From IMG/VR virus record IMGVR_UViG_3300045125_000028, positions 1 through 43,053 of that record: a stretch of DNA of 43,053 nucleotides. The stretch is one strand, 5' to 3'. The notes below the pieces were generated by a model that was not told the origin of the DNA, did not search any database, and saw only the letters and a program-made list of their open reading frames with translations. Shown here one piece after another: positions 1 through 43,053 of the stretch (its first letter is position 1; each line of letters begins with the position of its first letter). The DNA comes from a virus. The position numbers and the translations under genes are program-made.

Positions 1-91
1 GGTGTACTTCGTTCAGTTATCCGGAATTTGGGTGTTTAACCGTTTTCGCATTTATCGTGAAACGCTTTCGCGTTTTTCGTGCGCCGCTTCA
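1..91 (+). other. Nanopore rapid adapter plus MuA transposon end (artefact)
   Basis: Positions 3-18 read TGTACTTCGTTCAGTT and 31-41 read GGTGTTTAACC, both pieces of the Oxford Nanopore rapid adapter. Positions 42-91 match the 50-bp phage Mu right end (R1-R2 MuA sites) used in the transposase-based rapid kit, ending GCCGCTTCA. No barcode is visible between the two parts. The same block occurs in reverse complement at the right end. This is library DNA, not phage sequence; real insert starts at about 92. Confidence 0.95.
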
Positions 92-92
92 C

Positions 93-161
93 AGGAAGAC
101 CGCCATCCGTGTGTTTAAAGACCTAGAGGAAGCAAAGCCAACTTGCAGAAAGGAGAAAGGA
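93..161 (+). CDS. 3' end of an upstream gene (partial, cut by adapter)
   Basis: From 93 one frame reads RKTAIRVFKDLEEAKP, a plausible helical C-terminus, and then drifts into the ribosome-binding site of the next gene. No stop can be assigned with certainty because of likely indels. Nothing about its function can be said. It shows only that the + strand operon began upstream of this read. Confidence 0.3.
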
Positions 162-162
162 T

Positions 163-918
163 ATGTCCGAAACAAGACCCGGAGAAGCCAAGCGATGCAC
201 CGGAAACTATTGCAGCGTTGCCCAGTGGTGTGAGCAGTATCAACGTGAACTCGCTTGAGCACCAAACTTCTGAAACTGGATGTAATCCGGTTTCTACGGA
301 GAAGAAGCAGGGGCCTGACCTACCTGTCAGTGGGCGCATGCCTGGGCGCATGCCTTGAAAGATCGACCCGTCTGCCAACTTTCATGTGCATACCTTTGAA
401 GGTAAGCCGTACATGAATGTAAACGGCACCGGCATGGTGTGGGTGGGCGTGACGATGGGCGGCAACAGCAGGACCTGTTGGTTGCCGGTGATGAACCACC
501 GCAATCAACCGGATCCCTGGCCCGGATGCGTTCCAAGTCAACACCGCCATCAGCGCGTTGCCTGACCAAGTGCTTGGCTATGTTCGGCCTTGGTTTAAAT
601 GCGTCTACGCCGGAGAGGACCTGCCCCTGGACCTGGAGCAGACAAAGGAAGAGCCCAAGAAGGAGGAGAAGGCAGGCAGAGAAGAAAGAGGAGAAGCCCA
701 AGACTTCAGAAGATGACAAGGGGAGCGACTGGTGCTGCTGGCAAACACGCTGATCGAACACTCCTTTGGCATTCAGAAGAGCGAGGCAGACCTGAAGTCC
801 TACCGGAAGAGCAACCAAGAACTGTTGGACGAAATCAAGGCCAAGTCGCCTGACTTGTACGAAGATCGTCCGAACCAAGTTTGCAGAAGCAAAGGAGAAG
901 GCACTTGGACAAGCCTAA
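163..918 (+). CDS. Single-strand annealing protein, Sak3/DUF1071 type
   Basis: The start at 163 follows a clear AAAGGAG ribosome-binding site. The joined frames read SSINVNSLEH, then GLTYLS, IDPSANFHVHTFEGKPY, MWLPVM-like CWLPVMNHRNQP, CLTKCLAMFGLGLN and YAGEDLPLDLEQ. This order is characteristic of the DUF1071/Sak3 family of phage single-strand annealing proteins, which pair complementary DNA strands during phage recombination and replication. A Lys/Glu-rich linker and a helical tail (FGIQKSEADLKSYRKS, then FAEAKEKALGQA) end at TAA 916-918. Expected length is about 250 residues. At least four frameshifts are needed, which I attribute to read errors. Position at the head of a replication/recombination gene cluster fits the role. 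The family call is from recalled sequence conservation, not a search. Confidence 0.75.
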
Positions 919-928
919 GAACCGCCAC

Positions 929-1081
929 ATGGTGTCTGTTACGCCGCAGGCGCTAGACGCGCTGGAGGAGGGGAACAAACGGCGCTGCAAAAGAGATTGG
1001 GTATCTCGGCTGGACCTCACACGCAGGTCATCGGCAATCACTGGTCCAGTCACTACAAGGAAAGCAACGGAGCAACTTTGA
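929..1081 (+). CDS. Small putative DNA-binding protein
   Basis: This reads MVSVTPQALDALEE and then, allowing frame changes, LQKRLGI and SHYKESNGATL. The pattern of a short strand, TPQALDALEE and a later HYKES helix resembles small ribbon-helix-helix or helix-turn-helix phage regulators of about 50 residues. In the literal frame it is open from 929 to a TGA at 1079-1081. It sits 10 bp after the annealing protein stop, so it is probably co-transcribed. The fold assignment is an inference; a frameshifted junction with the next gene cannot be excluded. Confidence 0.45.
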   Translation: MVSVTPQALDALEEGNKRRCKRDWVSRLDLTRRSSAITGPVTTRKATEQL

Positions 1082-1347
1082 ACACAAGCCCGACAGCGGG
1101 CGTCTGATGGCTTCTGCAATCCAAGAAGCATGAGAAGGCCCCCGACTACTGGGGCGAGATCGCAATCAACCTGGAAGGACATGACGAAGATCAAGGTCGA
1201 AGACGGCCTGGACCATCGTCAAGTTGTCGGGTTGGAAGCGCAAGAGCAAGACCGGGCAGGTTTACCTGTCCCTTGCAGTAGATCGTTTTGTGCCCCGTGG
1301 CGAAGAGCCGCAGCGTCACAACGACGACGAGGATGTTCCCTTATTAA
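1071..1347 (+). CDS. SSB-like small protein with acidic DDEDVPF-type tail
   Basis: Joined frames read NFEHKPDSGRLMAS, KHEKAPDYWGEIAINL, MTKIKVEDGLTIVKLSGWK, RKSKTGQVYLSLAVDRF and a terminal HNDDEDVP. The DYWGEIAIN...VKLSGWK...QVYLSLAVD core is seen in small beta-barrel phage proteins of the DUF736-like/ssDNA-binding type. The acidic end followed by a likely Phe and stop (read here as Leu-Leu because of a homopolymer error) is the hallmark protein-interaction tail of SSB-like proteins. Being next to an annealing protein supports a role at single-stranded DNA. The start codon is not visible, so the 5' end is approximate. Confidence 0.55.
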
Positions 1348-1363
1348 TCAGGAGATTTAAACC

Positions 1364-1700
1364 ATGACAACGAAACAGAAAGTGTTGGACTACATCAAAA
1401 GGAGCGCCTCTTGAGGCATCTGCCAAAGATGTGGCGGCGGCGGGGGGACCAGCGAACTCCAGTATGTCCAGCACCATCAGAGATATCTGAAGAACGGCCC
1501 CAAGAAATCCAAGCGTAGGTTGGGACGCCCCCTGCAAGAATGTCCCTCCTTTCGAGGGCGCTGTGCTTAAGCGGGAAGACCCGGAACTTCGCAGCCTTCG
1601 CATGGCAGTCAGTGAACACGCCCACATCGTTGACAACCTCAAGGAAAGAGATCAACGAACTGACGGTGATCATTGCCTACCTTGAGCATCGTTGCTTTAA
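1364..1700 (+). CDS. HTH plus coiled-coil protein, function unknown
   Basis: The ATG at 1364 follows GGAGATTTAAACC. The N-terminus MTTKQKVLDYIK with AKDVAAAAGT and QYVSTIRD looks like a winged-helix or helix-turn-helix unit with a recognition helix near residues 20-40. The second half, LKREDPELRSLRMAVSEHAH and IVDNLKERINELT-like, ending IIAYLEHR, is a coiled coil. The layout suggests a dimeric DNA-binding protein about 105-110 residues long. Three or more frameshifts are present. A role in early transcription or replication control is an inference from the context. Confidence 0.5.
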
Positions 1701-1714
1701 AGCGGAGGGACCCC

Positions 1715-2108
1715 GTGGCCCTTCCAGTTTGAAGCCAGGAAGGTCGCTCTCAAGCTTAGGATCGGACGGGGGTTCGCTCCTGACCCTGTCTGTCCACCCT
1801 GATGAGATTCCAGAAGAACTCATGCGGGACTTTGTTGGGGCGCGGTACGGCTGCGCCCTTGTACAGATTCAGGATGACGAGTCCCCAACGCCGTACAACA
1901 ACCGGGTCCAGCAGGCAGCAATCCTGTGTAAACAGGAGACCTTCTGGAAGTTCATGGTGGTGAGCTCTGCTGAAGAGGAGGCGGCCAGAGCACCTGTGCG
2001 GCTACCTTGGCATTGGAGTCACGCGCTGAACTCAATGGCAACAAAGTCGCGCAGGAAAGGTTTGTTGAGATGGTTAAACGATATGAGGCCATGAATGACC
2101 CTTTCTAA
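1715..2108 (+). CDS. Conserved phage protein, function unknown
   Basis: Starts probably at GTG 1715 behind GCGGAGGGA. It reads PFQFEARKVALK, TLSVHPDEIPEELMRDF, GARYGCALVQIQDDE, QQAAILCKQETFWKFM, SRAELNGNKVAQERF and ends YEAMNDPF before TAA 2106-2108. The ALVQI...ILC...F...SRAEL pattern recurs in small early phage proteins of unknown function, about 130 residues long. One frame is intact for roughly 300 bp, so it is among the better-read genes here. No catalytic motif is evident to me. Confidence 0.6.
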
Positions 2109-2112
2109 CCGC

Positions 2113-2412
2113 ATGAAGCCGTTCATGGCGTACCTGGAGGAAACCAAGTATGTCCAGTTGAAACGGTTCTCTAAGCACTCAAAGATTCCAATGAGCCAGT
2201 TGGTGCGCGAGGCCATCGAACCTCCGTCGCTCAGCCCTGGTGACAAATACCACGTCACAGGGTTCAATGATGAGGCTCTTGGCTGCAACGAAGGCAGTCT
2301 CTGACCACGAGGCTACTCCAGATGCGGTTCCCCTCGGGGAGATCGTTGCAGAACTTGTAAACGAAAGATAGAAGCGCAAAAGATGGTCGAGGCAAACATG
2401 GGAGACAAATGA
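2113..2412 (+). CDS. Ribbon-helix-helix DNA-binding protein
   Basis: Reads MKPFMAYLEETKYVQLKRF, SKHSKIPMSQLVREAIE, SPGDKY, SGFNDGL and AVSDHEATQMRFPSGRS, ending KMVEANMGDK at TGA 2410-2412, about 100 residues. The short N-terminal strand followed by two helices (residues about 5-40, with MSQLVREAI) is a typical ribbon-helix-helix fold, as in Arc/CopG repressors, which dimerise and bind operator DNA. A probable autoregulator or early-gene regulator. Its stop overlaps the next start as ATGA. Confidence 0.6.
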
Positions 2413-2695
2413 AAACACCTTGTTACACCACGCACCGGCATCAAGATCGGGATCGCGTATCAACCGCGCCGTGCGAGGGCTTTCCTACGAGGAGAGGCTG
2501 ATTCAATCACCTGATTGGCGAAAAGAAGAAGTTCTTTTCTCCCAAAACTGACAGCAATCTGTCTTGGTCTCGCAGTTGCACTTTCGGTTGGATAAGCAAA
2601 CCTTAGAAGATGGTTTTGACGAGTTGGGTTGGCTAGTCATTGCGCTAGTCATCATCCTGCTCGCACTTATAACTTGGATCATTTTGGAGATTTAA
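2409..2695 (+). CDS. Small two-TM membrane protein
   Basis: Starts at ATG 2409, overlapping the preceding stop (ATGA). The frame-joined product has a polar N-terminus (MKTPCYT, then GIKIGIAYQPRR), a hydrophobic stretch LTAICLGLAVALSVG, a polar loop DKQTLEDGFDEL and a second strong membrane segment GWLVIALVIILLALITWIIL, ending at TAA 2693-2695. It is about 95 residues. Early phage genes of this kind often act at the host membrane, for example in exclusion or lysis control, but nothing in the sequence identifies a role. Confidence 0.55.
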
Positions 2696-2698
2696 ACC

Positions 2699-3350
2699 AT
2701 GAAAGAAGAAACCTGCATCATCACCCCGCCTAAGTTTGGCGTCACCGATTTCTACATTGAGGGCGCTGCGCCCCTGGTGGTAGAGCGATTCAGCAAGAAG
2801 GCTGAGTTGATGGCAAGAATGGCCGAAGGAAAGTCGGCGGGGAGCAAGAAGGTCCGCGATGCCCGCGACTACGACAAGGAAGCCGAAGAGGCCCGCTATC
2901 GCAGTGGCGACGGTTGGGAAGGCATGAACGCTGCTGCATTCCGTGCAGCAATGATCAGTGCCTGCCGACTTTAGTTGGCTTCAAGATGACGCTTGCGAAG
3001 TTGTCTACCTTCATTGAGGCAGATGGCTACGACAAGAACGATGGTGTTCCCTTGGTCCGTATCTGCGGCGAGTCAGGTTTTTACGGCACACACCCGTAAC
3101 GCCACAGGTGTTGTTGATGTGGCTCCGCCCGATAATGTATCGCAACTGGGCAGCGCGTTTACGTCCCGTTACGACATGGACCAGTTCAAGGTGGCCGATG
3201 TCTTGAACCTTGTCTCCCGGTGTGGGATGCAAGTGGGTATCGGTGCAGGTCGTCCCGACAGCAAGGCTTCTGCCGGATGCGGGTTCGGTCTGTTTAACGT
3301 GGTTGCCACTGACCTGAAGCGAAGTAATTGCCAAGTACGGCATCAAGTAA
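2699..3350 (+). CDS. Conserved phage protein (~217 aa), recombination-cluster associated
   Basis: The ATG at 2699 follows GGAGATTTAAACC. It reads MKEETCIITPPKFGVTDFYI, APLVVERFSKKAELMARM, AAFRAAMISACRLVGFKMT, EADGYDKNDGVPLVRICGE, RYDMDQFKVADVLNLVSRCG and QVGIGAGRPDSKA, ending YGIK at TAA 3348-3350. The AFRAAMISACRL and GMQVGIGAGRP blocks resemble a phage protein family I recall beside annealing proteins, but whose function I do not know. Two or three frameshifts interrupt it. It is the last gene before the repeat tract. Confidence 0.6.
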
Positions 3351-3735
3351 GGCAGGCCAGGATCGGACGGGCAAGGCGTGGCGAGGTCTGGCAGAGCGGT
3401 TTGGGCGGGGCACGGCTTGGCAGGCGCGTCAAGGCGGCGCAGGGCTTGGTTCAGGCAGGCATGGCAGGCTAGGAGCGGCAACGCTCGGACGGGAGCGTCG
3501 CGGCGTGGTCCGGCAGGGCAGGCAAGGCATGTCGGGGTAAGTTCAGATCAGGGCGATCCAGAGAGGCACGGCAGGCAAGGCTGAACGAAGAGCGCGACCT
3601 GGACTGTTTGGTGTGGCAGGCGAGGTTTCGCTGGGCAGGGTACGTCGCGGTGAGGCTTGGCGTGGCGAGCAAAGAACGGCGTGAAGCTGGCGAGGATGGT
3701 CGAGGTCAGGCAAGGCAGGCATTTAAACCCGAGGA
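3351..3735 (+). repeat. Noncoding tract of 5-nt-periodic NNGGC repeats
   Basis: Between two genes lies about 385 bp with strong purine bias and a 5-nt period. Successive pentamers read CAGGC, AAGGC, GTGGC, GAGGT, CTGGC and similar, with G at fixed positions, in at least three blocks interrupted by less regular sequence. The period is not a multiple of three and no frame gives a credible protein. It ends just before the GAGGAG ribosome-binding site of the next gene. It could be an origin, a regulatory RNA leader or a recombination site; the sequence does not say which. Confidence 0.75.
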
Positions 3736-3742
3736 GATTGAA

Positions 3743-4290
3743 ATGGAAATGGAACGCAAGTATTTGACACAGATCGCCAAGCAAAGCGGCAGCGTGTTGA
3801 TGGTCGATCAGGTGATTGAGTTGGCGGCAGGATGAGGACAGCATCCACCGCACAACCATTTCACCTGGGATGACTCCAAGGCTGCGGACTCTTACCGCAA
3901 GCAAGCCCGGGCACTAATTCAACGGTGCAAGATCAGGCTTGTGGGAACAGGACCCCGTAGAGGTCCGAGCCTTCGTCAGTCTGCCGACGGATCAGGAAGA
4001 ACGGCGGCGGTTATCGTTTAACGACCCGCGTTATGAGCGATTCGGGTTTAAAGGGACGAACTGCTGCGGGACATCAAGTTGACGATACGCCAGCGCGCGG
4101 AACAAGAAGTTGCACCTGTTGGATCAGGACTTGAAGCATGACCTTCTCCTGGCCGTCGAGGAGAAACTGGAGCGCGGGTCAGTACAAACCTGAAGACAGG
4201 ACGGCAGCATACGAGCCTACGAGAAGCAGCGCAGCAGAGCGCTTGAGGCGTTGGAGGCGGTGCATCCGTACACGGACAGCCTGATCTGGG
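3743..4290 (+). CDS. Conserved phage protein (DDSKAADSYR family)
   Basis: The ATG at 3743 follows GAGGAGATTGAA. It reads MEMERKYLTQIAKQSGSVLM, DQVIELA, HNHFTWDDSKAADSYRKQ, ARALIQRCKI, PVEVRAFVSLPTDQEERR and DIKLTIRQRAEQE. The HxxFxWDDSKAAxxYR element is recurrent in phage proteins of about 130-180 residues. These are annotated as hypothetical, sometimes suggested to bind DNA. The C-terminal half is helical and badly frameshifted; the end near EALEAVHPYTDSL is approximate. Confidence 0.5.
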
Positions 4291-4293
4291 TTA

Positions 4294-4545
4294 TGCAAGC
4301 ACCATCGAGGAGCACCCGCCAAATGCGATTGATGGCAAGGTCGGAGAGCCATCACCACCCTACGCGCCGCGCTTGCGGAGCCGTATTGCGATGACTGCGG
4401 AGGCACTGATCCTGAGTGTCCTTTAAAGCGCACGGAGCCTGATGAAAGTCCGATCACCAATGTGACGGAGGCGGTTACTACGACGATCATCGAAGTCGAG
4501 AAGTCGCTGCGCGAAAAACTCGGCAAAGCATGGCAGCCTTCCGAG
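4294..4545 (+). CDS. Poorly resolved small gene with CxxC motif
   Basis: Frames in this stretch give EEHPPNAIDGKVGEPSPPYA, then EPYCDDCGGTDPECPLKRTE and VTEAVTTTIIEVEKSLREKL. The CDDCGGTDPEC segment could bind a metal. Neither start nor stop can be placed. It may be one gene with the following stretch: the 13-base word GCGCACGGAGCCT occurs in both (near 4429 and 4585). I do not recognise it. Confidence 0.3.
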
Positions 4546-4547
4546 CT

Positions 4548-4889
4548 ATGTCGATTCAGACATTGGTTGATGAATTGGCAGCGCAGCGCACGGAGCCTAG
4601 AGCCAGTTCACCAGTGGCGGAAGTCAGGGTGCGCGGAACTGGTATGACGGGCACCCGGACTATGAGGATGGTGGCGGCCCCTACGGGAGCCCCGCGTCCT
4701 CTATACTCCACCCACCTCCGAAGCGCACGGAGGAGTTTGTGTGGCTCCACTGGCCTGTGCCACTACCGCAGGCCGCTGACGGATGAGGAGATCACCTTCC
4801 AAATCTCCATTGACACGCCAATCAATCTTTACGCCTTTGCGCCGCTTGCATCGAAGCAGCACACGGCATCAAGCAGGAGGATGTATGAC
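4548..4889 (+). CDS. Phage protein of unknown function, C-terminus clear
   Basis: The 3' part is well defined: NWYDGHPDYEDGGGPYGSP, PKRTEEFVWLHWPVPLPQ, LTDEEI, QISIDTPINLYAFARAIEAA and HGIKQEDV, ending at TGA 4887-4889, which overlaps the next gene's start region. The FARAIEAAHGI ending is common in small early phage proteins of unknown function. A possible start is near 4548 (MSIQTLVDELAAQRTEP). At least two frameshifts are present. Confidence 0.4.
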
Positions 4890-5552
4890 TCCGCTCATTC
4901 AAGAGATGGTGGCCTTCAACCCTGAAAAAGCGGTTGACCACCATTGGTTTGATATGAGTCCTGCATACAGGGCCGAGCAGAACATAAGTGGCGAAGTGCT
5001 GTCTCGACCTCTGCCGTTTCCTGATGTTGCCTTGGTGTGCGCCTATGAGGAAAGAAAGCCCTCATCTTTGTGACTCGCTCAGGATCGCTGACTGGCGTCG
5101 CCGGACTTCAATGGGACAACAGAAAGACTTACGACATCCCCGGGTTTTTCTTTCTTGTGGACGATGAAGGAATCAGAGTAAAGCACAAAGATGGAACGCC
5201 GTTCGATTACAGAACCAGTTACGCAACTGGAGTCCTTGCGTTCATTGCGGCGTTCCTTGAGTCAATAGAACTAGAACCCGCCACGGGCTATCAGCCGATT
5301 AAAAGGGCAAACTGGGAAAAGAAAGTGCGGCAGGGCAAAGTACCCACTTACGACTGGACAACGGTTGTGATTGAGCCGTCCAAGCCCAAAGGCGACTCAC
5401 AAGGCGGAACTCATGCAAGCCCAAGATGGCATGAGCGCAGAGGACATTGGCGCAACATGAAATCAGGAAAGAAAGTTTGGGTCAAGAACTGCGAGGTTGG
5501 CGACAAAAGTCTTGGCGCGGTGTTTAAGGACTACAAGTTGGAGCAAGCATGA
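4884..5552 (+). CDS. Conserved phage protein (~222 aa), function unknown
   Basis: Starts at ATG 4884 with GCAGGAGG just upstream; an ATG 4 bp earlier is in another frame. A single frameshift near 5056 separates MTPLIQEMVAFNPEKAVDHH...ALVCAYEERK from FVTRSGSLTGVAGLQWDN, FFFLVDDEGIRVKHKDG and the C-terminus. The end, GGTHASPRWHERRGHWRN followed by MKSGKKVWVKNCEVGD, is a conserved, basic, His/Arg-rich signature that I recall from phages of proteobacteria. No enzymatic motif is apparent. The stop overlaps the next start. Confidence 0.65.
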
Positions 5553-5879
5553 GCGGCGACCATAACGCACATCAAAAGCCCAGGTCTTATCTTGACCGTG
5601 ACACCATCATCCGATTGGCTCACGCGGCCAACTTTGAAGGGTTTGGTAACGGCGACTGGGTATGCACCACTGAAGAGATTGAACGCTTCTGCCGCCCTTG
5701 TTGCAGCCCACGAACGAGAGGCTTGCGCGAAGATGCGTGAACAACACGGCGACGATGTTGTGGCAACAGGCAGGTTTATCGCGTCGGACGGGAAGTTATA
5801 CCACTCAGGAGATCATTGGTTGGGTGACCGGGCCGAGGGGGCAGAAGAATGCGCCGAACTTATCAGGAGCAGGACATGA
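5549..5879 (+). CDS. Small phage protein, AHEREACAK family, copy 1
   Basis: ATG 5549 overlaps the preceding stop. It reads YLDRDTIIRLAHAANFEGF, DWVCTTEEIERF, then after one frameshift ALVAAHEREACAKMREQHG and ends CAELIRSRT at TGA 5877-5879. The DRDTIIRLA start and AHERExCAK core recur in genes at 6311 and 6537, so it belongs to a local paralogous family. Members are helical and around 100 residues. Similar proteins are common in phages and have no known role. Confidence 0.65.
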
Positions 5880-6127
5880 GCAACATCAAAGCACTACCAG
5901 GGGCCATCCTGCAAACAAGTGAACCCAATGAAGACCTGATACACGCCATCAAAGGAATACTTGCGGATGCGGAATCGGGCCTGTTGCAATCGCTGTTCGC
6001 TACCGGGTTCCGATCTGACGGGCTACGGATGTCCTGTATGTTCCCGCACACCAATGTGTACGAAGTTGTTGGAGCCATTGAATGGCTGAAGCACCAGTAC
6101 ATCGACCAAATGACGGAGCCGCTATGA
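5876..6127 (+). CDS. Small conserved phage protein (83 aa)
   Basis: Intact frame from ATG 5876 (ATGA overlap with the previous gene) to TGA 6125-6127. It reads MSNIKALPGAILQTSEPNED, then AIKGILADAESGLLQSL and YEVVGAIEWLKHQYID. The LADAESG...GAIEWLKH pattern matches a widespread small phage protein that I know only as hypothetical. It contains no frameshift, so this stretch of the read is accurate. Confidence 0.7.
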   Translation: MSNIKALPGAILQTSEPNEDLIHAIKGILADAESGLLQSLFATGFRSDGLRMSCMFPHTNVYEVVGAIEWLKHQYIDQMTEPL

Positions 6128-6321
6128 ACGAGCAAGAACGCATCCACATCAAAGCCGCGAACTACGCCAACGACCTCAAGAAGCAATATCTTCAGAAGGT
6201 CAAGGAGGGGTGACGCCGCCCTCGCACCAAGAAGATGGAGGGGGAGATATGGATGGCCCAATACGAAGGCTACAGGGATGCTCTTCAGGACTTGTTGAAG
6301 GAGCAAAACAATGGATCGTGA
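6124..6321 (+). CDS. Small helical phage protein
   Basis: ATG 6124 overlaps the preceding stop. The first frame reads MNEQERIHIKAANYANDLKK and QYLQKVKEG, then meets a stop at 6211-6213. A second frame continues KKMEGEIWMAQYEGYRDALQ and DLLKEQNNGS to TGA 6319-6321. I join them as one about 65-residue alpha-helical protein with a read error near 6212. Two tiny genes are possible. Function unknown. Confidence 0.45.
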
Positions 6322-6540
6322 CACCATCATCCGGGCTGGCGCGGGAGGCGGGACTGCACCTGCCGCAACCGATGTTGCTTGGATGCCCATCATTGGAAGC
6401 CAGCTCCGCTGACGCTTCGCCGCCCTGTATTGCCGCGCATGAGCGAGAGCAATGCGCGAAGGTGGTAGAGAACTACACAGGCGCATGGAATGGTGAGGCT
6501 GGCTATGCCCTCGCCGCCGCCATCCAGGAGCAGGAAATGA
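6311..6540 (+). CDS. Small phage protein, AHERExCAK family, copy 2
   Basis: Starts at ATG 6311 with MDRDTIIR, the same opening as the gene at 5549. After frame changes it reads AAHEREQCAKVVENYTGAW and GYALAAAIQEQE, ending at TGA 6538-6540. It is a paralogue of the 5549 gene, about 75 residues long. Start and stop both overlap neighbours in the ATGA style. Confidence 0.55.
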
Positions 6541-6729
6541 ATGAAAACCTAATCCTTGCCGCCGCCCTCAAGGTTTGGACTGACGTTGGAACTCCCCACA
6601 CCGAAGTTGTTTGAGTTTGCCGATCTGTTACGGGCGCGGGCAGGCGGAATGCGCGAAGGTGTGTGAGTCTTATGTTGCAGAGGGTATTGGCCGAGAAATG
6701 GCCGCAGCGATCAGGAGCAGAACGCATGA
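6537..6729 (+). CDS. Small phage protein, CAKV family, copy 3
   Basis: ATG 6537 overlaps the preceding stop. It reads MNENLILAAALK, then in shifted frames TLELPTPKLFEFADLL, CAKVCESYVAEGIG and EMAAAIRSRT, ending at TGA 6727-6729. The C-terminal CAKV...AAAIRSRT matches the ends of the two paralogues upstream, but the N-terminus differs. About 63 residues. Confidence 0.5.
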
Positions 6730-6986
6730 ATCCCATCACTCCTACTCATGCGTGCTGCCACGAGCTGCTCCGCAAAGTCGATGCCGTCACGCCTGAAGGG
6801 CGTACAACGCCAGACGGCGACAGACTCGCCAAGGACATCAACAACTATTTAAACCACATCGGCAGTCACAGCCACGACTGTTGGCGGTGAGGGCCGGAGC
6901 ACTACATATGCGCCTACGAGCAAGTAAAACGGTTAGAAGAGAAAATCAAACGTCTTGAGAGGCAACTAACCGAACTGAACGACTGA
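6726..6986 (+). CDS. Small phage protein with C-terminal coiled coil
   Basis: ATG 6726 overlaps the preceding stop. It reads MNPITPTHACCHELLRKVDA, then TPDGDRLAKDINNYLNHIG and, after a frameshift near 6890, YICAYEQVKRLEEKIKRLER and QLTELND, ending at TGA 6984-6986. The last about 25 residues are a clear coiled coil. About 86 residues; function unknown. The stop overlaps the next start (TGATG). Confidence 0.6.
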
Positions 6987-7310
6987 TGTTCAAATTCCCG
7001 CAGTACACCTGGGACAAAGACCGTGAACTCTGTAAGAGATGTAAACATTATCCAGAAGCAGCCGGACTCTAGTAACTACAACGGCGGAGGCGTGGTCATG
7101 CGATGCGCCAGCCAATCCGTTTAAAGGGTTCAAAGGCATCGGCACCTCATCGACAACGGACCAGGGACCATGCAAAAGAAGGTCGTCTTTTTGAAGCCAT
7201 CAGACCCGTACCCGACTTGGCCGTTTACACAGGTGGACCCGAGATCGCTATCCCGTTGGTGCAAGAAGAACTTGCAAAGCGTCTACCAGATTGAAGAGGC
7301 CCCCTTTTGA
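6986..7310 (+). CDS. Cys-rich small phage protein, probable metal binding
   Basis: Reads MFKFPQYTWDKDRELCKRCK, HYPEA, then in other frames NYNGGGVVMRCAANPFKGF, GIGTC and EGRLFE, ending IEEAPF at TGA 7308-7310. The CKRCKHY pair and later Cys residues suggest a zinc-binding fold of about 105 residues. Similar Cys-rich proteins sit beside recombination endonucleases in lambdoid-type clusters, consistent with the YbcO-type gene that follows. It needs several frame corrections. Confidence 0.5.
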
Positions 7311-7598
7311 ACTACAGAGAACCAGTACCTTCTAGAGGCTGTAAGGGAATCTGCCTGCCAACATTGCGGGGCGCGGGATGGCACGATAGTGGCTGCTCAC
7401 TCCAACCAACTGCGTGACGGGAAGGGCAAAGGCATCAAGGCCCATGATTACAGAATCGCGGCCTTGTGCTTTAAATGCCACTACTCCATAGACCAGGGCA
7501 TGACCCTGACCAAAGAGGAGCGCAGAGAGATGTGGGAAGAGGCGCACAGAAAGACGGTGGGGTGGCTGTTTGACAACGGCCACCTCAAGGTCACTTAG
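7306..7598 (+). CDS. YbcO-family (DUF1364) nuclease
   Basis: One frame reads LLEAVRESACQHCGARDG, TIVAAHSNQLRDGKGKGIKA, HDYRIAALCFKCHYSID, EERREMWEEAHRKTV, ending HLKVT at TAG 7596-7598. The CxxC...AAH...GKGKGIKAHD...CxxCH...EAH order is the signature of YbcO/DUF1364, an HNH-like zinc nuclease found in lambdoid phage recombination regions. Both zinc Cys pairs and the His residues are present. It is about 97 residues long, normal for the family. The start is uncertain (TTG 7306 proposed). Its 3' end overlaps the end of the convergent giant gene. Confidence 0.75.
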
Positions 7599-32404: not shown

Positions 32405-32409
32405 GGTTG

Positions 32410-34495: not shown

Positions 34496-34504
34496 CTGCG
34501 CTCC

Positions 34505-35698: not shown

Positions 35699-35707
35699 CT
35701 AATGCTC

Positions 35708-36496
35708 CTATGTCGTCGGGATAGTCGTCCAACCAGCCGACTGGGTGTTGCCGATATTCTGCCAATTAGCAGTCTGGGTGTCATCAACGATTTCCCAGAA
35801 CTTTCTTCCGTTGACCGTGTCCGTTGCCGTGGCGAGCTTCTTGGATGGCCGCAAAGATTCTAGCCTGCGCCGAAACGGCGTTCTGCGCCTGGTGGCAGCT
35901 TCAACCACCGCGCCTTGAAGTTCTTGGCTGGTGCTGACCTGATGCCCGCGCCGGTCGACGGTCTCTGCTATGGCTACGTTGGAGGCGTTGGTCCGCACGT
36001 GACACTCGTCCGTGCCGGTAGCAGTCTCAGCCACTGCTGCTGTAGAAAGCAAACGCAGCAGAAACTTCGTCTGCCCCCGACGCCGCCTCGCCCTGATGAC
36101 CGCGTTTGGCTTGGAACAGCGCAAAGGTTTGATCCGGGCCGGAGGCCGTCGCGGTGACCCAGCCGCGCTGCACTCTGGCGTTGCGGCAGCGATGCTGTGC
36201 CGCGCCCGGACGCAGTCTCGGCTACCGGCGGTGGCGTAGGTCTGGCTGTCGCTGATACAGCGATCCGCGCCGGTGGCAGTCTCGCTGACCGCCCCATAAA
36301 CCTCAACTACACCGGCAACTGCGTCTGGGTGCCAGTGGCATCGTCTGCGATATCGGACTGGCACCAAGAGTAAGGAAGAGCGGAGGTGGCGTCTGTACCT
36401 GTCGCTGTCTCAGCAACATCGCGGTCATAAACCGATTCACCCAACCGGCCTGACCCCAGAGTGCCTGAACCCCACCCGCCTTCTGGCACAACTCAT
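35708..36496 (-). CDS. Tail appendage protein with AETATGTD repeats
   Basis: Proposed ATG at 36496; ends SAGWTTIPTT at TAG 35708-35710. It begins PEGGWGSGTLGSGRLGESVY and carries a string of degenerate repeats, VAETATGTDA, AVSETATGADR, VAETASG, AVAETATGTDE and AIAETVDR, spaced about 25-30 residues. The ending is FWEIVDDTQTANWQNI, then GNTQSAGW. Repeats of ATGTD with a W-x-x-I-x-D-x-Q-x-x-x-W end are found in phage fibre or tail-tip accessory proteins. The repeats are frame-shifted relative to each other by read errors. Confidence 0.55.
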
Positions 36497-36500
36497 CCCT

Positions 36501-37083
36501 TTAAGCGGACAGGCTGAAGGTATAAGTCACATTCAGAATGTCACCCGACACAACCGAGCACGGTCGCCAGGGGCATTGAGAAGTCAGCCGCCGAGAACAG
36601 CGTGCCAGTCGTTCCGCTCTTGGTGTTGTTGGAGGTCAGAAACGCTCCACCCACCGTCGTCGTGCCGTTGATCGTGAACACTGCCTTGCTTGCGGTGTTG
36701 GTCACCACAGAAGGGTTGGCGTTCGTTGCGGCAAACGTAGCCGTGGGGCGGTTGGATTCGCTGTAAGCCGTGACTTCCAGTCCAACCGGCGTGCGAAGAC
36801 ATGGTGTCACCAGCAGCGGGGTTGTTGGAAGACGACGCACCGTACAGGCCCAGATACCACGTCGTGATCTGAGCGGTAGAGGTCAGGGCAGTACCTGCCA
36901 TGTACTGAAGACCGACGTTCACCACGAGGTTGGGCGTCTCAGCAACCCACTTGAGGTTGCCATCCTTGTCGTAGCACTCAACGGGTGTACTCTGCCCGTG
37001 GCCTTCGCGCCTTCGGACGAACCGGTGTTGGCAATCAATCCACCACCAACAGTATCAGTGGCCTTGGCCTTTTCGATGCTCAT
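36501..37083 (-). CDS. Conserved phage virion protein (~193 aa)
   Basis: ATG 37083 follows AGGAGTCATAA. Joined frames read MSIEKAKATDTVGGGL, ECYDKDGNLKWVAETPNLVV, NVGLQYMAGTALTSTAQITT, WYLGLYGA, AAGDTMSSHAGW, EVTAYSESNRPTATFAATNA, TINGTTTVGGAFLTSN and NVTYTFSLSA before TAA 36501-36503. The D-x-x-GNLKWVAE...N-x-VVN-x-GL start, GDTM-x-SHAGW-x-EVTAY centre and GGAFLT-x-N-x-TKSGTTGTL are a well-conserved small phage structural family near fibres. Four or more indels. Confidence 0.65.
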
Positions 37084-37092
37084 TTATGACTC

Positions 37093-37512
37093 CTAGTTGG
37101 AAGACCGGATCAAGGCACTGTTGGCGTCGTTGACCGGCATAACGATGGTGAATGTGGCCGTCGAGGTCTTGTCTGACCCGAAGTCCAACACGGCGATGGA
37201 ACGGTTGGCTTTGCTGGAGTTGTAGATCAGAGCACACCGCGCTGTAAACACGCCGGGGTTCCACTCCACATTGTCGAAGTCCACAAACGCCGTGTACCCA
37301 GAACTGCTGATGGTCGTGCCGGTCAGCGTCTTGCCTCCGGCAGAGTACCCAGTCCCAGTGATCTCGTTGGTCGTGGTGTAAACGGTCGTGTCTTCGTTTA
37401 TATCAGCGTTGCCGTTGTACAAAGCAATCTTCAGGGTATCCGTCGTGAGATCGTGGATGCCCTGGTACAACTCCTTCTTGAAGGAGGTGGTCTGCGTTTG
37501 AACGATGGGCAT
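37093..37512 (-). CDS. Conserved phage structural protein (139 aa), intact
   Basis: One unbroken frame from ATG 37512 to the stop at 37093-37095. It opens MPIVQTQTTSFKKELYQGIH and includes DTLKIALYNGNADINEDTTV, TGYSAGGKTLTG, NPGVFTARCALIYNSSKANR and SIAVLDFGSDKTSTATFTIV. The FKIALY...GYSAGG...ARxALIYNxS...VLDFGxDK...FTIxxP order marks a beta-sandwich virion protein that is common next to tail adaptor genes in environmental phages. Its exact role is not known. The start overlaps the adaptor stop (TGATG). Confidence 0.75.
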   Translation of the reverse strand: MPIVQTQTTSFKKELYQGIHDLTTDTLKIALYNGNADINEDTTVYTTTNEITGTGYSAGGKTLTGTTISSSGYTAFVDFDNVEWNPGVFTARCALIYNSSKANRSIAVLDFGSDKTSTATFTIVMPVNDANSALIRSSN

Positions 37513-38167
37513 CAGCCCACCTTCACCCTAACCTGCCCGTTGCGGTAGGCATCCTGGCGGTTCTTGCCATCGCCCAGTTGCTTCAACAGGATCAGAGACT
37601 GTGCAAACTGCTGCTCGTACATAGTGACCACGTCCGGCTCTTCCTTCATAAACCGAGCGGCCTCGACCATCACGCCGTTAAACAGCGCAGAGTCAAAGTT
37701 GTCGCCAAGCCAAGACGTACCAGCGGTCACAATCGAGACCGGGTAGTAGAAGTAATGCAACTCCACTTCCAAGCCTGCGCTCGGAGTCGGCCCAACGATG
37801 AACGTCAACTCATTGGCGTTGTCAGACCGAGGCCCGAAGATGGCGTAGTACCGAGGAGTCCCAGTGCTCGTGGGCGTGGGGTATGCCTGACGGATGAAGT
37901 TCACATCCTTATCAAGCAGATACTCATACGAACCATCTGCCAGGATTACCGCCATCGAAAAGACGGACAGGAAATCCTGACGGGCACTGAAGATACTTGT
38001 TATTGGCAGTAGAGATACCCGGTGACGTTCTTGCGAAGCGCCGGGAGTTGAACCGTGTTGTAGATTTTCTGCTCTGCCAACTCTGTCATGTTGGCGAAGT
38101 CAGTCGCCGAGAACGAGTTCTCGGTGTAAGTCCTCTAACAGCGAGTCTTCAACTCCGTGTAGTTCAT
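37512..38167 (-). CDS. Phage head-to-tail adaptor-type protein (~218 aa)
   Basis: ATG 38167 (MNYTELKTRC) overlaps the preceding stop. Reads YTENSFSATDFANMTELAEQ, KIYNTVQLPALRKNVTGYL, DGSYEYLLDKDVNFIRQAYP, PRYYAIFGPRSDNANELTFI, VGPTPSAGLEVELHYFYYPV and WLGDNFDSALFNGVMVEAAR, ending NGQVRVKVG at 37512. The N-terminal YTEN...F..AEQ-x-IYN helices followed by a beta-rich middle and a C-terminal helical bundle fit the conserved connector/adaptor family placed between portal and tail tube. The last 147 residues are intact; two frameshifts affect the first 70. Confidence 0.7.
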
Positions 38168-38437
38168 ACGAACCTCGGCTTCATCGGGCCGCGTGCGGTC
38201 ACACCACGTTGAGCAGCACCATTCCCACGGGTTTTGATGCCCGAAGTCTTGGGCGCAGGGTTGTAGCCATCACGGGTGATGTTGCCCACGGACATGTTTA
38301 CACGGTTGGCCGCAGTCGGCTCTGCCTGAGTACCGTTACCCAGGGCAACCTTGCCGCCCGTCATGGTGTGCGGCTCGGCGTAGACGGAGGTCGTCACCGA
38401 CCTCCTTGCCGCCCATCTTCTTGCTGAACTTAGCCAT
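38164..38437 (-). CDS. Small Gly/Lys-rich conserved phage protein
   Basis: ATG 38437 (MAKFSKKMGGKEVGD) then, after a frameshift, SVYAEPHTMTGGKVALGNGT, NRVNMSVGNITRDGYNPAPK and TSGIKTRGNGAAQRGVTARG, ending at TGA 38164-38166 as an ATGA overlap. About 91 residues, disordered and basic. The TSGIKxRGxGAAxxGxxxRGPM ending recurs in short proteins of similar phages. Function unknown. Confidence 0.6.
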
Positions 38438-38438
38438 C

Positions 38439-38617
38439 TCAGCCACCCTTTCTTGTAGGTGAACGAACCGACTTCTTTCTGGTTGGCAACCTTGGCAAGG
38501 TTACGGCCCAGTTTGCGCATCTGTTCATTGGTCTTGCCGCCCTTGGCAAGTTTGCGTCATGGGCTTGTCCCGGATGCATGTGCTTCTCGTGGCGTGAACG
38601 GCTTTCTTGGCGTCCAT
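38439..38617 (-). CDS. Small basic phage protein (~59 aa)
   Basis: ATG 38617 gives MDAKKAVH, then in other frames HEKHMHPG, LAKGGKTNEQM and RKLGRNLAKVANQK, ending near TKKGG at TGA 38439-38441. It is a His/Lys-rich short protein, one base from the next start. The RKLGRNLAKVANQK ending is a repeated theme in this phage type. Function unknown. Confidence 0.5.
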
Positions 38618-38626
38618 ATTCGACCC

Positions 38627-39053
38627 TTACGTCGTTTGGATAGTTACTGTACCAACAGATGTCGTTGCCACCAAGTAATTTGGCGTCAGACCTGCATCAT
38701 TTGCTCTGGCTCCGCCCAACCGGACTCCAGCCCCATTGAATGTCCCGAGAGCCGCCTGTGGCAACCCCTTGCTCAGGGTTGGCGATAGGTTGGATTTCGC
38801 GCTGTTCGTTCCGGCGGATCTGTATGTGCTGTCTCGACGGGGATTGGTGGACAGCCTGGTGGATCGTCAACCGGGAACATCCCAAGGAGCAATTGAGGAT
38901 GGTCGGGGTCCAGCACTCCGAGCAAGACCAAAAGGTTATAACGTCTTGGTTTTGATAACATTCTTCCTTTGCGTGCTTTTAGATTTGAACTGCTGCGCCA
39001 CAGCGATCGCACATGGCAATGCTGGCTTTACCGGAGGCAAACCGATTTCCCAT
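38627..39053 (-). CDS. Zinc-ribbon-like conserved phage protein (~142 aa)
   Basis: ATG 39053 gives MGNRFASGKASIAMCDRCGA, then NLLVCLECWDPDHPQLLLGM, FPVDDPP, RRDSTYRSAG, GSRDIQWGWSPVG and a C-terminal NYLVATTSVGTVTIQTT at TAA 38627-38629. The MCDRCG and later C-x-x-CWDPDHPQLxLGMxPVDDPQ strings are strongly conserved. The two Cys pairs suggest a structural zinc. Such proteins sit among neck and tail genes in podovirus-like phages. At least four indels. Confidence 0.7.
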
Positions 39054-40000
39054 TTAGGTGTGTCGCTCCGCCAATGAACTGCTGACGCGGCACGAAACCG
39101 GATCGCAGCCTTCTCCCGGTCTTCGTCAGCGGCCAAAGCTGCCATGCTTCTTCGTACTGAGCCTCAGGATCGGCAGGCGGTCACAGGCTTCAGGAATCTT
39201 CATGCCCATGTAGTACGACAGCCCTGCCACCATGCAGGGGATGAATCTAAACGGGACATCAGCCACGTCCACGCCCCGACCGGCGTCCTGCGTGCGGCGC
39301 AGTCGCCAGTAGCACCAGGGTGTGTGGTCTGAGTTGTCCGGCACCGGCCAGACCGTCACGGCAGGAACCTGCGCCCAGCTACACCGCTGTCCCGGATGTA
39401 TGGCTTGCCGCCGTGGTGCCTTGCTGACCACGGAAGCAGTTGTACAGCGTATTGCCCGTGATGTAGCCGTAGACGATGATCTCGTCGTCAATCTTGATAA
39501 ACCCTGAGCCGGAAGACCCGCCGCGCTGGACAGCGTGATGGTCGTGGCAGAAGAGTTGATCGTTGTAGACAGCGTAGCCCCAATCGGGGAGATCATGCCG
39601 TTGTTCGCGCTGAACCAGAATCTGGATCGGGCGCGATGTGGTGCAACTTGTTCGGGATCGTGGCGTAAGTAGAAACACTGATCCGCGTGATGTTCAGGGT
39701 CAGCCTGATGTGCTGCTGCTGTTAGCCTGCGTGCGAATGACTAGTGCTCAAGCAGGTCCACCGTGTCGTTGGGCAGGGCATAGGTCATCTGGTTGTGGAC
39801 CAGGGTGATACGTCCCCGGCTCCATCGTCCACATGTTGATGCCACGGTTGGCCCAGTCGGCGAACAGCAGGTTCAGAGCTGCGGCGCGCAGTGCGGAGAT
39901 CGTAGCCCGTGCGAAGTTCTGAGCCGCAACGCTCAAAGGCTTCTTCCACGACCTCAGAAAGATCGAGGTTGAATACAGCGATGCCTGCAGTTGTTGCCAT
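39054..40000 (-). CDS. Conserved tail/neck protein (~315 aa)
   Basis: ATG 40000 gives MATTAGIAVFNLDLSEVVEE, AFERCGSELRTGYDLRTARR, LLFADWANRGINMWTMEPG, then NQMTYALPNDTVDLLEH, SSATTITLSSAAGLPAQGFI, KIDDEIIVYGYITGNTLYNC, FRGQQGTTAASHTSGTAVY, RRTQDAGRGVDVADVPFRFI, PCMVAGLSYYMGMKIPEACD and DEDREKAAIRFR. The start, with EEAYERCG-like helices and RSLNLLF-x-DWANRG-x-NLW, and the VPFRF-x-PC-x-VAGL-x-YY-x-A-x-KIPE ending are very widely conserved in environmental phages. They probably form part of the neck or tail tube. The end near 39054 is approximate. Confidence 0.7.
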
Positions 40001-40247
40001 TTAACGGAACCTTGCAGTCTTCTTGGCGATGGCCTTGGGCTGGGCTACGAACTGCTTGCCGGAGGCTTTGCCTGCTCGTTTTGCTCGGGTTGAGGCGGCG
40101 TACTCTTGGGGGAAAGACTCTTTGATCGCAGCCTCTGGAAGATACCTTTCACCCGTGTCAGAAGATCGTTTACCACTCTTGGTTCTCCACTTCTGGGCGG
40201 TCCAGTTCTTCAGGACGAGGCGGCTTTTTCAAGATTCCGCTCCAACA
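40001..40247 (-). CDS. Small basic phage protein
   Basis: Ends AKKTARFR at TAA 40001-40003, directly before the next ATG. Upstream frames read QKWRTKSGKRSSDTGERYLP, EAAIK, QEYAASTRAKRAGKASGKQF and VAQPKAIA. The SGKRSSxTGERYLPEAAIKALSxxEYAATTRAKRAG string is a familiar, highly basic short phage protein (60-75 residues). The start is uncertain, and it overlaps the end of the endonuclease gene in my reading. Confidence 0.55.
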
Positions 40248-40680
40248 TACGCAACCTTGTTCTGCTCAATGTATGCGGCCGCTTTACGCAACAAATTGCG
40301 TTGTCCTTCGTTAAGCCAAGACCGCGATTGCAGTTGGGGCACAGCTGCCCCCGTATTCTTCCAGTCTCGTGGCGTGGTCAATACACAACCATGCAAATTT
40401 TTCTTCGGGTTCGTTGCAGAGAGCGCAGCAGCCCTTTTGGGCTTCGTACATCTCGTCGTACATCTGCTGAGTTGCGCCACGTCGGCGCAGTCTACGGTTT
40501 GACGGCAAGTTCAGTTGTTACGCCGCCAATCGTTAAGATGCTCGCGGTTCTGGTCTGCCCACTCCTGTCTTTTGGTCTGCATGCACGACTTGCACTGCGA
40601 CTTGTACAGATGGGCCAACTTGCCACCTCGGCTGAACAACTCAGTCAGCGGCTTGTCTGCTTGCACCCAGTAGTCTTAGT
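40229..40680 (-). CDS. Endonuclease VII-like HNH protein
   Basis: Frames give DKPLTELFSRGGK, YKSQCKSCMQTKRQEWADQN, REHLNDWRRNN, RRGATQQMYDEMYEAQKGCC, ALCNEPEEKFAWLCIDHDHA-like residues (the last part in a shifted frame) and a helical end LLRKAAAYIEQNKVAYVGAE. The N-terminal CxxC, then Y-x-x-MYEAQKGCCALC and LCIDH, fit the recombination endonuclease VII fold: two zinc Cys pairs and a DH catalytic motif. The family resolves branched DNA before packaging. The start is uncertain, near 40666-40683. Confidence 0.65.
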
Positions 40681-40971
40681 CACGGTACCCACCAACCTCA
40701 GCGAGCCTTATATTGCTTGGCTAACAGTTGACTTTTTGCGGGCGCTCCACTGACTCCGCTGCCGTGCCCTGGGTAGCCCTGCCCCTTGATACTCTCAAAT
40801 ATGCGACTTGCGCATCCCGGGCTTGGTGTAGTTGCCTGCCTCGTTTACCTTGGACTTGGCCTCACCACCCTCGGCGTACTCCGTGAAGTCCGTGTTGTCA
40901 CGGCGCTGCTTCACAGTGCCCTTGGGCATCTTTGCCGGGTTGATGCAACCCATTCCACGGGAGGCACGCAT
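40676..40971 (-). CDS. Small conserved phage protein (KVNEAGNYTKPGMRK family)
   Basis: ATG 40971 gives MRASRGMGCINPAKMPKG, DNTDFTEYAEGGEAKSKVNE and AGNYTKPGMRKS. In shifted frames it continues ESIKG, QWSARK and LLAKQYKAR, with a GGYRD-type end at TAA 40676-40678. The KVNEAGNYTKPGMRKxLFxxIK and QWSARKAQLLAKQYKAxGGGYRD blocks are strongly conserved among small genes of related phages. Function unknown. Confidence 0.65.
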
Positions 40972-40974
40972 GGT

Positions 40975-41319
40975 TACACATCGTCCCGCGAGTCTTGCCG
41001 CCTTGGCAATCCCGTCAGCAGCCTTCACGCACCCACCCTTGCGGAAGGTGGGCATGTCGGCATCTGGATTTTCGTAGCATGTCACGCGCGTACCGGGCTT
41101 GATCCACATCCGTAATCTTGTACTCAGGACGAGCGCGGGCTCTCTGCCTTGTCACCGAGCACCAGGAGCTCCTTGTCGCCAATGAACTGAGCCTTGCCGG
41201 CTGCTTCTCTTCATCAGCCGTGCGGGTGTGAGTACCGCTTACCTTTGAAAGGTGAACTCCTCTTCAGCCCACTCTTACGAGCGTCACGAAAGGCTTTGCC
41301 AAATTCGCTAGATTGCCAT
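40975..41319 (-). CDS. Small basic phage protein(s), FGKAFRDAR family
   Basis: From ATG 41319, frames read FGKAFRDARKSG, FTFKGKRY, TRTADEE, AQFIGDKELLVLGDKAE and EYKITDVDQAR. A second block reads MPTFRKGGCVKAADGIAK and ends in an RGKTRGRM-like sequence near 40975. The FGKAFxxARxxGxKTFTxxGKxYTTRTADE string is a very common short phage protein. The second block may be a separate tiny gene. The repeated ADGxAKRGKTRG tail also occurs in the next two genes upstream. Confidence 0.45.
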
Positions 41320-41322
41320 GAG

Positions 41323-41584
41323 TTACACCATCTTTCCAGCGAGTCTTGCCCCGCTTGCACAGCCATCGGCCGCGTGGGTGTAGCCACCAGCAGCCATCTT
41401 TCTCCGGAGAAGGAAGACTCCAGGCATCAAGTCTCGGGGCAATTCGCTCACCTCTTGGGCGTCTTGACCTTGCCAACCTTGCTCTTCGGTAAAGACGTCA
41501 CAGTCGCGCGCTCTTCGCATCCGCTTCATCTCAAGGGCGGTGGGCGGCACTGGTCAGCCCACGCTCTGCACCTGCTTCAGCCAT
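41323..41584 (-). CDS. Small basic phage protein with ADGCAKRGKTR tail
   Basis: ATG 41584 gives MAEAGAERGL; other frames give PPTALEMKRMRRARD, SLPKSKVGKVKTPK, SELPRDLMPGVFLLRRKMAA and GGYTHAADGCAKRGKTRW-like, ending KMV at TAA 41323-41325. About 87 residues, rich in Lys, Arg and Gly. Its C-terminal tail is shared with its neighbours. Role unknown. Confidence 0.5.
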
Positions 41585-41586
41585 GA

Positions 41587-41951
41587 TCAGCACTTCCCCG
41601 CAAGCTTTGCCACCCCTGGCCATCTTCACTTCACATGCCACGGGTCTCGCCCTTCTTGGCAACGCCGTCTGCCTAGACTTGTGACCTGCGGCCAGACCAC
41701 GGGAAGCGTAGCGGCCATGCCGCCCTTCTTCATGCCCATCTCTCAGCCTTCTTCATGCTTGATCATGGACTTGGGAGCGCCCCTTCTTCTTCATGAAGGC
41801 CAACTTCCTTCTACCAATCATTTCCTTGGATTCCATTTCGCCACCTCCGGCAAATTTGCGGCCCTTGTCGGCCTTGATGAACTCTTCCCCCACAGACTGA
41901 GGGAACACCTGCTTTCTTGGCGAACTTGGGGTTGTTGGCCACCGCCGCCAT
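41587..41951 (-). CDS. Small basic phage protein (SVGEEFIKADKGRKF family)
   Basis: ATG 41951 gives MAAVANNPKFAKKAGVPQSV, then GEEFIKADKGRKFAGGGEME, SKEMIGRRKLAFMKKKGA, MIKHEEAEMGMKKGG and ADGVAKKGETRGM, ending near TGA 41587-41589. The GVPxSVGEEFxKADKGRKF-x-x-GG start and GxAxKGxTRG tail are a familiar small protein of environmental phages. Function unknown; abundance of Lys and Gly suggests a disordered nucleic-acid-binding protein (inference). Confidence 0.6.
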
Positions 41952-41970
41952 GAAATTGTGCTGCTTACCG

Positions 41971-42221
41971 CTAACTGAGGGCACTGCGCTGCTCCTTCAT
42001 GTAGGCGTCCAACTTGCCCTCAAGCCTGATCCAACCGCGCAATCACGCGGTTCATGTCGTCGTGCACGTCCGCTTTGGTGACGTACTCCTTGGCAGATCT
42101 CTTCCCGCGTGCGGTTGAGCAAAATCTGAATACGCTTCACCTCTTCCGCATGACTCTTGACCACCCAGAAGATGATGGCCGAGAGGAAGGAGAGGACCAC
42201 GTTCCATATCAGCAGTTCCAT
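41971..42221 (-). CDS. Small membrane protein with coiled coil, spanin-like layout
   Basis: ATG 42221 gives MELLIWNVVLSFLSAIIFWV and VKSHAEEVKRIQILLNRTRE, then after a frameshift EYVTKADVHDDMNRVIARLD and ends QRSALS at TAG 41971-41973. It has one N-terminal TM helix followed by a coiled coil of about 55 residues, 83 residues in all. This resembles i-spanins, but related proteins are also tail accessory proteins, so function is open. Its start overlaps the preceding stop. Confidence 0.6.
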
Positions 42222-42468
42222 GCTCGCAAACTCTTGTTGATACGGCTATTCGGATCGTTGGCTGTCTTGCGCTCGTCAAGCTTCTTCTTCATGCCCTTCA
42301 TCCGGGCGCAGAAAGAGTCGCGACGTGGGACCGCCCTCCGGCTGTGGAGCCTTCAGACCCGGCTTCCCAGGATTGGCGCGCGTTGTAGGAGGCGCGCCTT
42401 TGGCGTTCAACCCGCCGCTCTGGCCGCCTTGCCCTCCTCTGCTGCTGCCATGCCGGTGACTTAGCCAT
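42209..42468 (-). CDS. Small conserved phage protein (DUF6321-like)
   Basis: ATG 42468 gives MAKSPAWQ, then GGQSGGLNAKGAPPTTRANP, GKPGLKAPQPEGG, FCARMKGMKKKL and INKSLRAWNC at TGA 42209-42211. The MAKSPAWxRKEGK...GGLNAKGRASYNR...GKPGLKxP...SFCARMxGM...SLRxWNC order is diagnostic of a short protein that is very common in environmental phages and cyanophages (I recall DUF6321). About 86 residues; function unknown. Confidence 0.7.
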
Positions 42469-42751
42469 AGAACACCGTGGCAGATGCGTCGGCAAAGCCG
42501 CTGGTCGCCGTGTAGATGCCTGTCTGAGCAAGGATGCTCCGCCTGGGTACAGCATGTACAGAGAACCAATCGCCCCGGCAGGTGTAAACGGCAAACAGCG
42601 TGGCCCCACCGTTGCCATCCGTGATGGTGACGGTTCCAGCAGCGGCGGTGTGCGTCAGGGCCAAAGCCTTGGATTCGGGCACGATACGCCGTGACCGCCG
42701 TACCTGGCTGGCCGCAGCGGCTGTGCCCGATTTAACGTCGGTTTGCATCAT
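42461..42751 (-). CDS. Conserved small virion-type protein (~96 aa)
   Basis: ATG 42751 gives MMQTDVKSGTAAAASQVRRS, SKALALTHTAAAGTVTITDG, NGGATLFAVYTPA-like, and ends SGFADASATVFYG at TAA 42461-42463. The MMQTDV start and a beta-sandwich-like pattern of short strands, with a final TVFYG, resemble small phage surface or decoration proteins. The stop overlaps the following ATG. One compensating frameshift pair lies near 42555-42585. Confidence 0.6.
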   Translation of the reverse strand: MMQTDVKSGTAAAASQVRRSRRIVPESKALALTHTAAAGTVTITDGNGGATLFAVYTCRGDWFSVHAVPRRSILAQTGIYTATSGFADASATVFYG

Positions 42752-42770
42752 GGTGATGCGCTCCTATGCG

Positions 42771-42969
42771 TTAGGCTGCACTGACGACGATAACGCCATA
42801 CGTTACCGCAGCGGCATCAACGGGGCTACCCGTGATATTGCTTGCGTGGACAGTGACCGTGTCGGCGGCGGAAACAAAGCGTTAAACACCAGACCGGCGG
42901 TCGGTGCAGCGGGCAGTGCCATCATCACTTCATCGCCAACAACTGCGCCGGTAACCGTGATCGTTAGAC
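42771..42969 (-). CDS. Decoration-like protein, 5' end cut by adapter
   Basis: From the adapter junction the frame reads ITVTGAVVGDEVMMALPAAP, TAGLVFNA, then VSAADTVTVHASNITGSPV, DAAAVTYGVIVVSAA at TAA 42771-42773. A GA-x-x-GD-x-V...P...GL-x-x-A-x-VSAADTVTV-x-x-x-N-x-T pattern is a common phage beta-sandwich protein near the capsid genes. The N-terminus is missing from the read. Confidence 0.55.
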
Positions 42970-43053
42970 AGCGGCGCACGAAAACGCGAAAGCGTTTCAC
43001 GATAAATGCGAAAACGGTTAAAAACACCCACCGAAGAACGAACCGAAGTACAC
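42970..43053 (-). other. MuA transposon end plus Nanopore adapter, inverted copy (artefact)
   Basis: In reverse complement this repeats the left end: GTGTACTTCG, a corrupted GGTGTTTTTAACC, then the Mu right-end sequence ending GTGCGCCGCT at 42970. One A of the five-A run and the final TCA are lost, typical of read-end errors. It proves that the molecule was read from adapter to adapter. Confidence 0.92.

Follow-up and report, generated by a model that had tools for sequence, protein, structure and literature searches.

In the Oxford Nanopore rapid kit the adapter is joined to the 5' end of the strands, and raw rapid-kit reads begin with it. Contamination by adapters of this type has already been described: the accessible part of the Barbell study (PMC13293122) reports, at contig ends of public assemblies, the same MuA flank and GGTGTTTAACC that are found in the DNA analysed here, together with the same warning that the kit block mimics Mu elements. 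Streptomyces is named in that part of the study, and our own genome scan with the adapter block matched two Streptomyces NBC assemblies. Nanopore adapters were also present at the termini of the phage YF01 assembly (PMC9965538), but there, at 704x coverage, they were found and trimmed, whereas in our case they were left in. As for gene prediction, the VirION study (PMC6487183) found that frameshifts shorten gene calls in viral assemblies, as they do here. The window, that is, the whole stretch of 43,053 nucleotides constituting IMG/VR record IMGVR_UViG_3300045125_000028, differs from the cases in the accessible part of PMC13293122 because it carries no barcode and derives from an IMG/VR metagenome, 3300045125. 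New here are a list of affected records in that one metagenome and a way to separate a read from a contig.

The two ends of the window (1-91 and 42970-43053) are mutually inverted copies of the rapid-kit adapter block, an untrimmed technical artefact, as the preliminary description had proposed with coordinates that proved correct (Table 1). The elements follow the expected order and face inward: TGTACTTCGTTCAGTT, a linker, GGTGTTTAACC and then the 50-nt MuA sequence of the phage Mu right end, with no barcode among them. Alignment to the adapter scored 122 for the left block and 104 for the right one, while the best of 500 control segments from the interior reached 29. The pieces of the adapter match the Nanopore sequences that PMC9965538 and PMC7730629 give. 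In the right block, 57 identities were counted when positions 42970-43028 were aligned to adapter positions 1-58, and the rest of the block, up to 43053, is degraded adapter. The blocks pair as a 45-nt inverted repeat, 98% complementary, which is the longest inverted repeat in the window. No barcode was found between GGTGTTTAACC and GTTTTCGC, whereas one does separate these two sequences in the contaminated Streptomyces assemblies and in Proteus phage PM1; since only barcoded kits need one, the library used non-barcoded rapid chemistry, although an exact version of the kit would have to be inferred.

Table 1. Coordinates of the features recognised in the window.
Feature	Position	Strand	Basis or remark
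Sequencing-adapter remnant	1..41	+	TGTACTTCGTTCAGTT at 3-18, miscalled linker, GGTGTTTAACC at 31-41; without barcode
Rapid-kit MuA transposon end	42..91	+	Identical at 50/50 positions to the right end of phage Mu (NC_000929)
Phage insert, genome fragment cut at both ends	92..42969	.	Collinear with relatives
Sak-like ssDNA annealing protein gene, about 8 frameshifts	151..894	+	Annotation of a relative and frameshift-aware alignment
Giant gene for a polyvalent protein with LPD38 and ART-PolyVal domains, in about a dozen frame segments	7594..16027	-	Relatives, domains
Lowest-error stretch, about 1-4 frameshifts/kb, within the single giant polyvalent-protein gene	7594..13870	-	Frameshift-aware and DNA alignment
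High-error stretch, about 19 frame-breaking indels/kb over aligned parts (18.7-42.8 kb), insertion-biased	16439..42767	-	DNA alignment
Repeat linker of Pro/Ala/Ser type, part of a large protein (with DUF4214 in relative G017)	19591..21190	-	Comparison with G017
Virion structural protein phrog_1645, 15 frameshifts	26539..27925	-	Frameshift-aware alignment
Virion structural protein phrog_3287 of 631 aa; 34 frameshifts here, none in eight relatives	28670..30613	-	Frameshift-aware alignment
Phage lysozyme, pieces in three frames	30610..31083	-	
Laminin-G/concanavalin-like tail protein, pieces in three frames	32291..34391	-	
SU10-type adaptor protein, two frames	37518..38233	-	
Second adapter block, reverse-complemented, several basecalling errors	42970..43053	-	Alignment to adapter

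The same block recurs at the ends of unrelated sequences from the same library. A search of 2.9 million viral contigs with a 31-nt MuA pattern returned 20 matching stretches, 17 of which come from metagenome 3300045125 and lie, without exception, at contig ends. The remaining three (L002, L008 and L017) belong to isolate-derived records and share a common Mu-like flank, GAAGCGCGAAAGCTAAA, at the place where the Nanopore adapter would be. A second search pattern brought the affected records of 3300045125 to 22, the window counted in. Seven of them carry the adapter at both ends, seven at the start only and eight at the far end only. In the first seven, which include a 251-kb record, a 145-kb record and the window, the adapter is placed outward at both ends; in the eight far-end-only records, out of 15 with a single adapter, it is reverse-complemented. 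The linker between TTCAGTT and GGTGTTTAACC is unlike in each record, as expected where the calls at a contig end come from one read. Apart from the window, at least 21 IMG/VR records from 3300045125 retain untrimmed rapid adapters (L003-L007, L009-L016, L018-L021 and L041-L047), and in one of them, the 101-kb contig L046, two MuA blocks lie 64 nt apart at its end.

This distribution bears on two readings of the terminal inverted repeat against which the preliminary description had rightly warned, namely a genuine end of a phage genome and the two ends of a transposing element of the Mu type. The identity of the 50-nt block with the Mu right end would speak for such an origin, as would the similarity of the relatives' capsid gene to Mu gpT. 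However, 21 other records from a single sample also carry the block, always at contig ends, and it is preceded by the Nanopore adapter and not by the flank common to Mu-like records: the native sequence upstream of the terminal 50 nt of the Mu right end (NC_000929) is absent from the window in comparison with L002, L008 and L017, and the block serves as a kit reagent. Furthermore, the related genomes do not end where the window ends, and relatives extend past both sides. The left end just precedes a gene whose relative in G019 lies at 19.5 kb in a contig of 42.5 kb; on the right, about 0.5 kb separates the end from the major head protein gene, into which L213 and L227 continue. A MuA transposase domain search gave no match in the window with its broken genes, and the control genomes were also without a match. 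When bases 1-25000 were searched by megablast, the Mu block was the sole match, with no near relative among named phages. We regard a real terminus or a Mu element as having practically no chance of being correct.

Between the two blocks lies an ordinary tailed-phage fragment, with nothing unusual for environmental phages. Collinearity extends over 6.7-30.6 kb with G017 and over 26.6-42.8 kb with L227 and L213, so that from 6.7 to 42.8 kb the fragment represents one phage and not a chimera; for 2.1-6.7 kb no close relative was found, and no tRNA genes were found in the window. The giant polyvalent-protein gene has open frames of 2500-3200 aa in most relatives, and phages of Vibrio, Bacillus and Escherichia carry distant relatives of it, at about 24% identity. 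In G017 (L057) this gene is itself broken once, at 2770-2914, a place at which the frame of G016 stays open (2597 aa). The repeat linker corresponds in G017 to the closing part of a 1555-aa protein with DUF4214 near its start, and a plus-strand Gly/Ala repeat at 20000-21200 is simply the reverse complement of this Pro/Ala/Ser-rich segment.

The genes of this fragment are broken throughout, in agreement with the frame switching noted in the preliminary description. The longest stop-to-stop ORF in the window has 754 aa and ORFs of at least 250 aa cover only 22% of its bases, while in seven of eight relatives the longest ORF has 2246-3184 aa and in all eight ORFs of at least 250 aa cover 44-90% of the bases; in at least six of those seven the longest open frame contains the polyvalent-protein gene. 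Frameshift rates were obtained by frameshift-aware protein-to-DNA alignment against G017. Expressed per kb, they were 1.1 (7.6-9.3 kb), 4.3 (9.4-11 kb), 1.9 (11.8-13.9 kb), 5.4 (13.8-16 kb), 8.0 (16.4-17.8 kb), 11.1 (17.8-18.6 kb), 8.3 (18.7-19.4 kb), 10.8 (26.5-27.9 kb) and 17.5 (28.7-30.6 kb), that is, from 1-4 over 7.6-13.9 kb up to 11-17.5 over 26.5-30.6 kb, and one 1.7-kb stretch holds just two frameshifts. Over 0.15-2.1 kb we counted about 10 per kb against the proteins of G019, a more distant relative (56-59% identity). Controls at 60% identity or more gave no frameshift, while at about 30% identity spurious ones appeared at 1.6-2.8 per kb; we therefore relied on a rate only where the relative reached 60% identity, 0.15-2.1 kb (56-59%) being near this limit and 16.4-17.8 kb (41%) below it. 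A coding-frame HMM counted 85 frameshifts, a figure that was not used for rates and is only a floor because the coding signal is lost where indels are densest: the model takes 27-30 kb for non-coding in spite of the 631-aa gene in that interval.

The advice to treat broken genes first as sequencing error is well founded, since the 631-aa gene at 28.7-30.6 kb contains 34 frameshifts and none occurs in its eight relatives, nor in the four relatives of the gene at 7.6-9.3 kb. Nothing specific speaks in favour of a biological origin, such as a decayed prophage, recoding or programmed frameshifting, and we consider it extremely improbable. Dozens of indels are spread across many genes, structural ones included, whose counterparts in the relatives are free of frameshifts; frames change rather than in-frame stops arise, hence stop recoding does not apply; moreover, other contigs from the same sample are fragmented too.

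The errors are not evenly distributed along the window. At the DNA level, the left part (6.7-16.0 kb) had 42 gaps of a length not divisible by three in 7.6 kb of alignment, and the right part (18.7-42.8 kb) had 201 such gaps in 10.5 kb (p = 1.6e-16). These counts correspond to 5.5 and about 19 (19.2) frame-breaking indels per kb, a change of about 3.5-fold; the reference for both was not the same phage but relatives with 77-90% DNA identity, and for this reason part of the indels is real divergence. The 474 indels per 100 kb that PMC6487183 gives for viral assemblies from long reads alone correspond closely to our left rate (4.7 against 5.5 per kb), whereas the right part is about four times worse than that and nearer to raw-read quality. 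The bias also flips from deletion to insertion, with 10 single-base insertions and 18 deletions on the left and 128 and 35 on the right.

Of the 128 single-base insertions on the right, 31 adjoin the same base and most lie outside homopolymers. This pattern is unlike the usual nanopore signature of homopolymer deletion, and it counts against the explanation that we prefer, namely a low-coverage contig. It could be accounted for by a two-read consensus retaining extra bases or by modified DNA. The insertion bias outside homopolymers is indeed what would favour a contribution of hypermodified phage DNA to the systematic nanopore error, beyond low coverage; if that were the case, the real chemistry of the DNA would be reflected in some of the errors. 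On the other hand, the error rate steps within one genome, which uniform modification would not produce, and further contigs of the sample are also poor. Such a contribution is thus very unlikely, and the version in which base modifications add insertion-type basecalling errors beyond those of low coverage seems to us a shade less probable still.

Low coverage brings us to the nature of the record, which the preliminary description had taken for a single read running from adapter to adapter. In our opinion this is probably wrong, and the window is very probably a contig assembled from low-coverage, non-barcoded Oxford Nanopore rapid-kit metagenome reads whose adapters were left untrimmed. In this kit MuA transposase cuts the DNA randomly and attaches its own end sequence and the sequencing adapter 5' on each strand. 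According to the layout that we propose, a plus-strand read from the left end and a minus-strand read from the right end would then have been merged, and a merger of opposite-strand reads leaves the adapter facing outward at both contig ends. Several overlapping reads at about 7-14 kb may have given a fairly good consensus, and outside this interval, above all at 16-43 kb, the sequence would have stayed near raw-read quality, with every gene broken. We infer this read layout and coverage from two independent patterns. If the sister records were raw reads, the adapter would stand at the 5' start of every one, but eight of the 15 one-ended records carry only a far-end copy, in reverse complement; this points to contigs, for which the assembler picks the orientation, while raw reads look otherwise. 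Similarly, a single read should show uniform error along the molecule, and here the frame-breaking indels rise more than threefold with a flip of the bias. Taken together, the forward and reverse-complement adapters and the error step favour a contig built from opposite-strand reads. Long-ORF coverage along the sister contigs varies without a clear pattern of ends versus middle, and was not used to prove assembly.

One raw nanopore read with an adapter at both ends is, by comparison, unlikely. The indel rate of the right half approaches raw-read error, the right adapter copy is itself rich in errors, and rapid-kit reads tagged at both ends do occur, at 3-5% in the accessible part of PMC13293122. 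Nevertheless, the double-tagged reads in that part are forward-forward, not forward and reverse-complement as in the window, and adapters stand at both ends even of the 251-kb and 145-kb records. The 1.7-kb stretch with so few frameshifts is also difficult to reconcile with one read, as are the far-end-only sister records and the internal step already discussed. An assembled contig thus remains our preferred reading, and the combination of adapter orientation across sister records with steps in indel rate separates a read from a low-coverage contig without raw data.

The biological interest of the record is low, and its practical value is that of a warning on IMG/VR dataset 3300045125. Genes, terminal repeats and "fragmented" proteins drawn from the record would be artefacts, and the same caution holds for at least 21 other records of this metagenome. 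Its adapter-bearing records can seed viral gene catalogues with false Mu links, inverted terminal repeats and short genes.

Comparable blocks were also seen elsewhere. In the Proteus phage vB_PmiA_PM1 (L285, PQ065999.1), deposited as a "complete" genome, a barcoded rapid-kit adapter with the MuA end lies near the 3' end (41810-42188), and this stretch is annotated as a hypothetical protein. In PLSDB, 22 plasmid records match the MuA/adapter block, many of them from Streptomyces and others from Borrelia, Acinetobacter, E. coli and Salmonella; some of these matches may be contamination and others true Mu.
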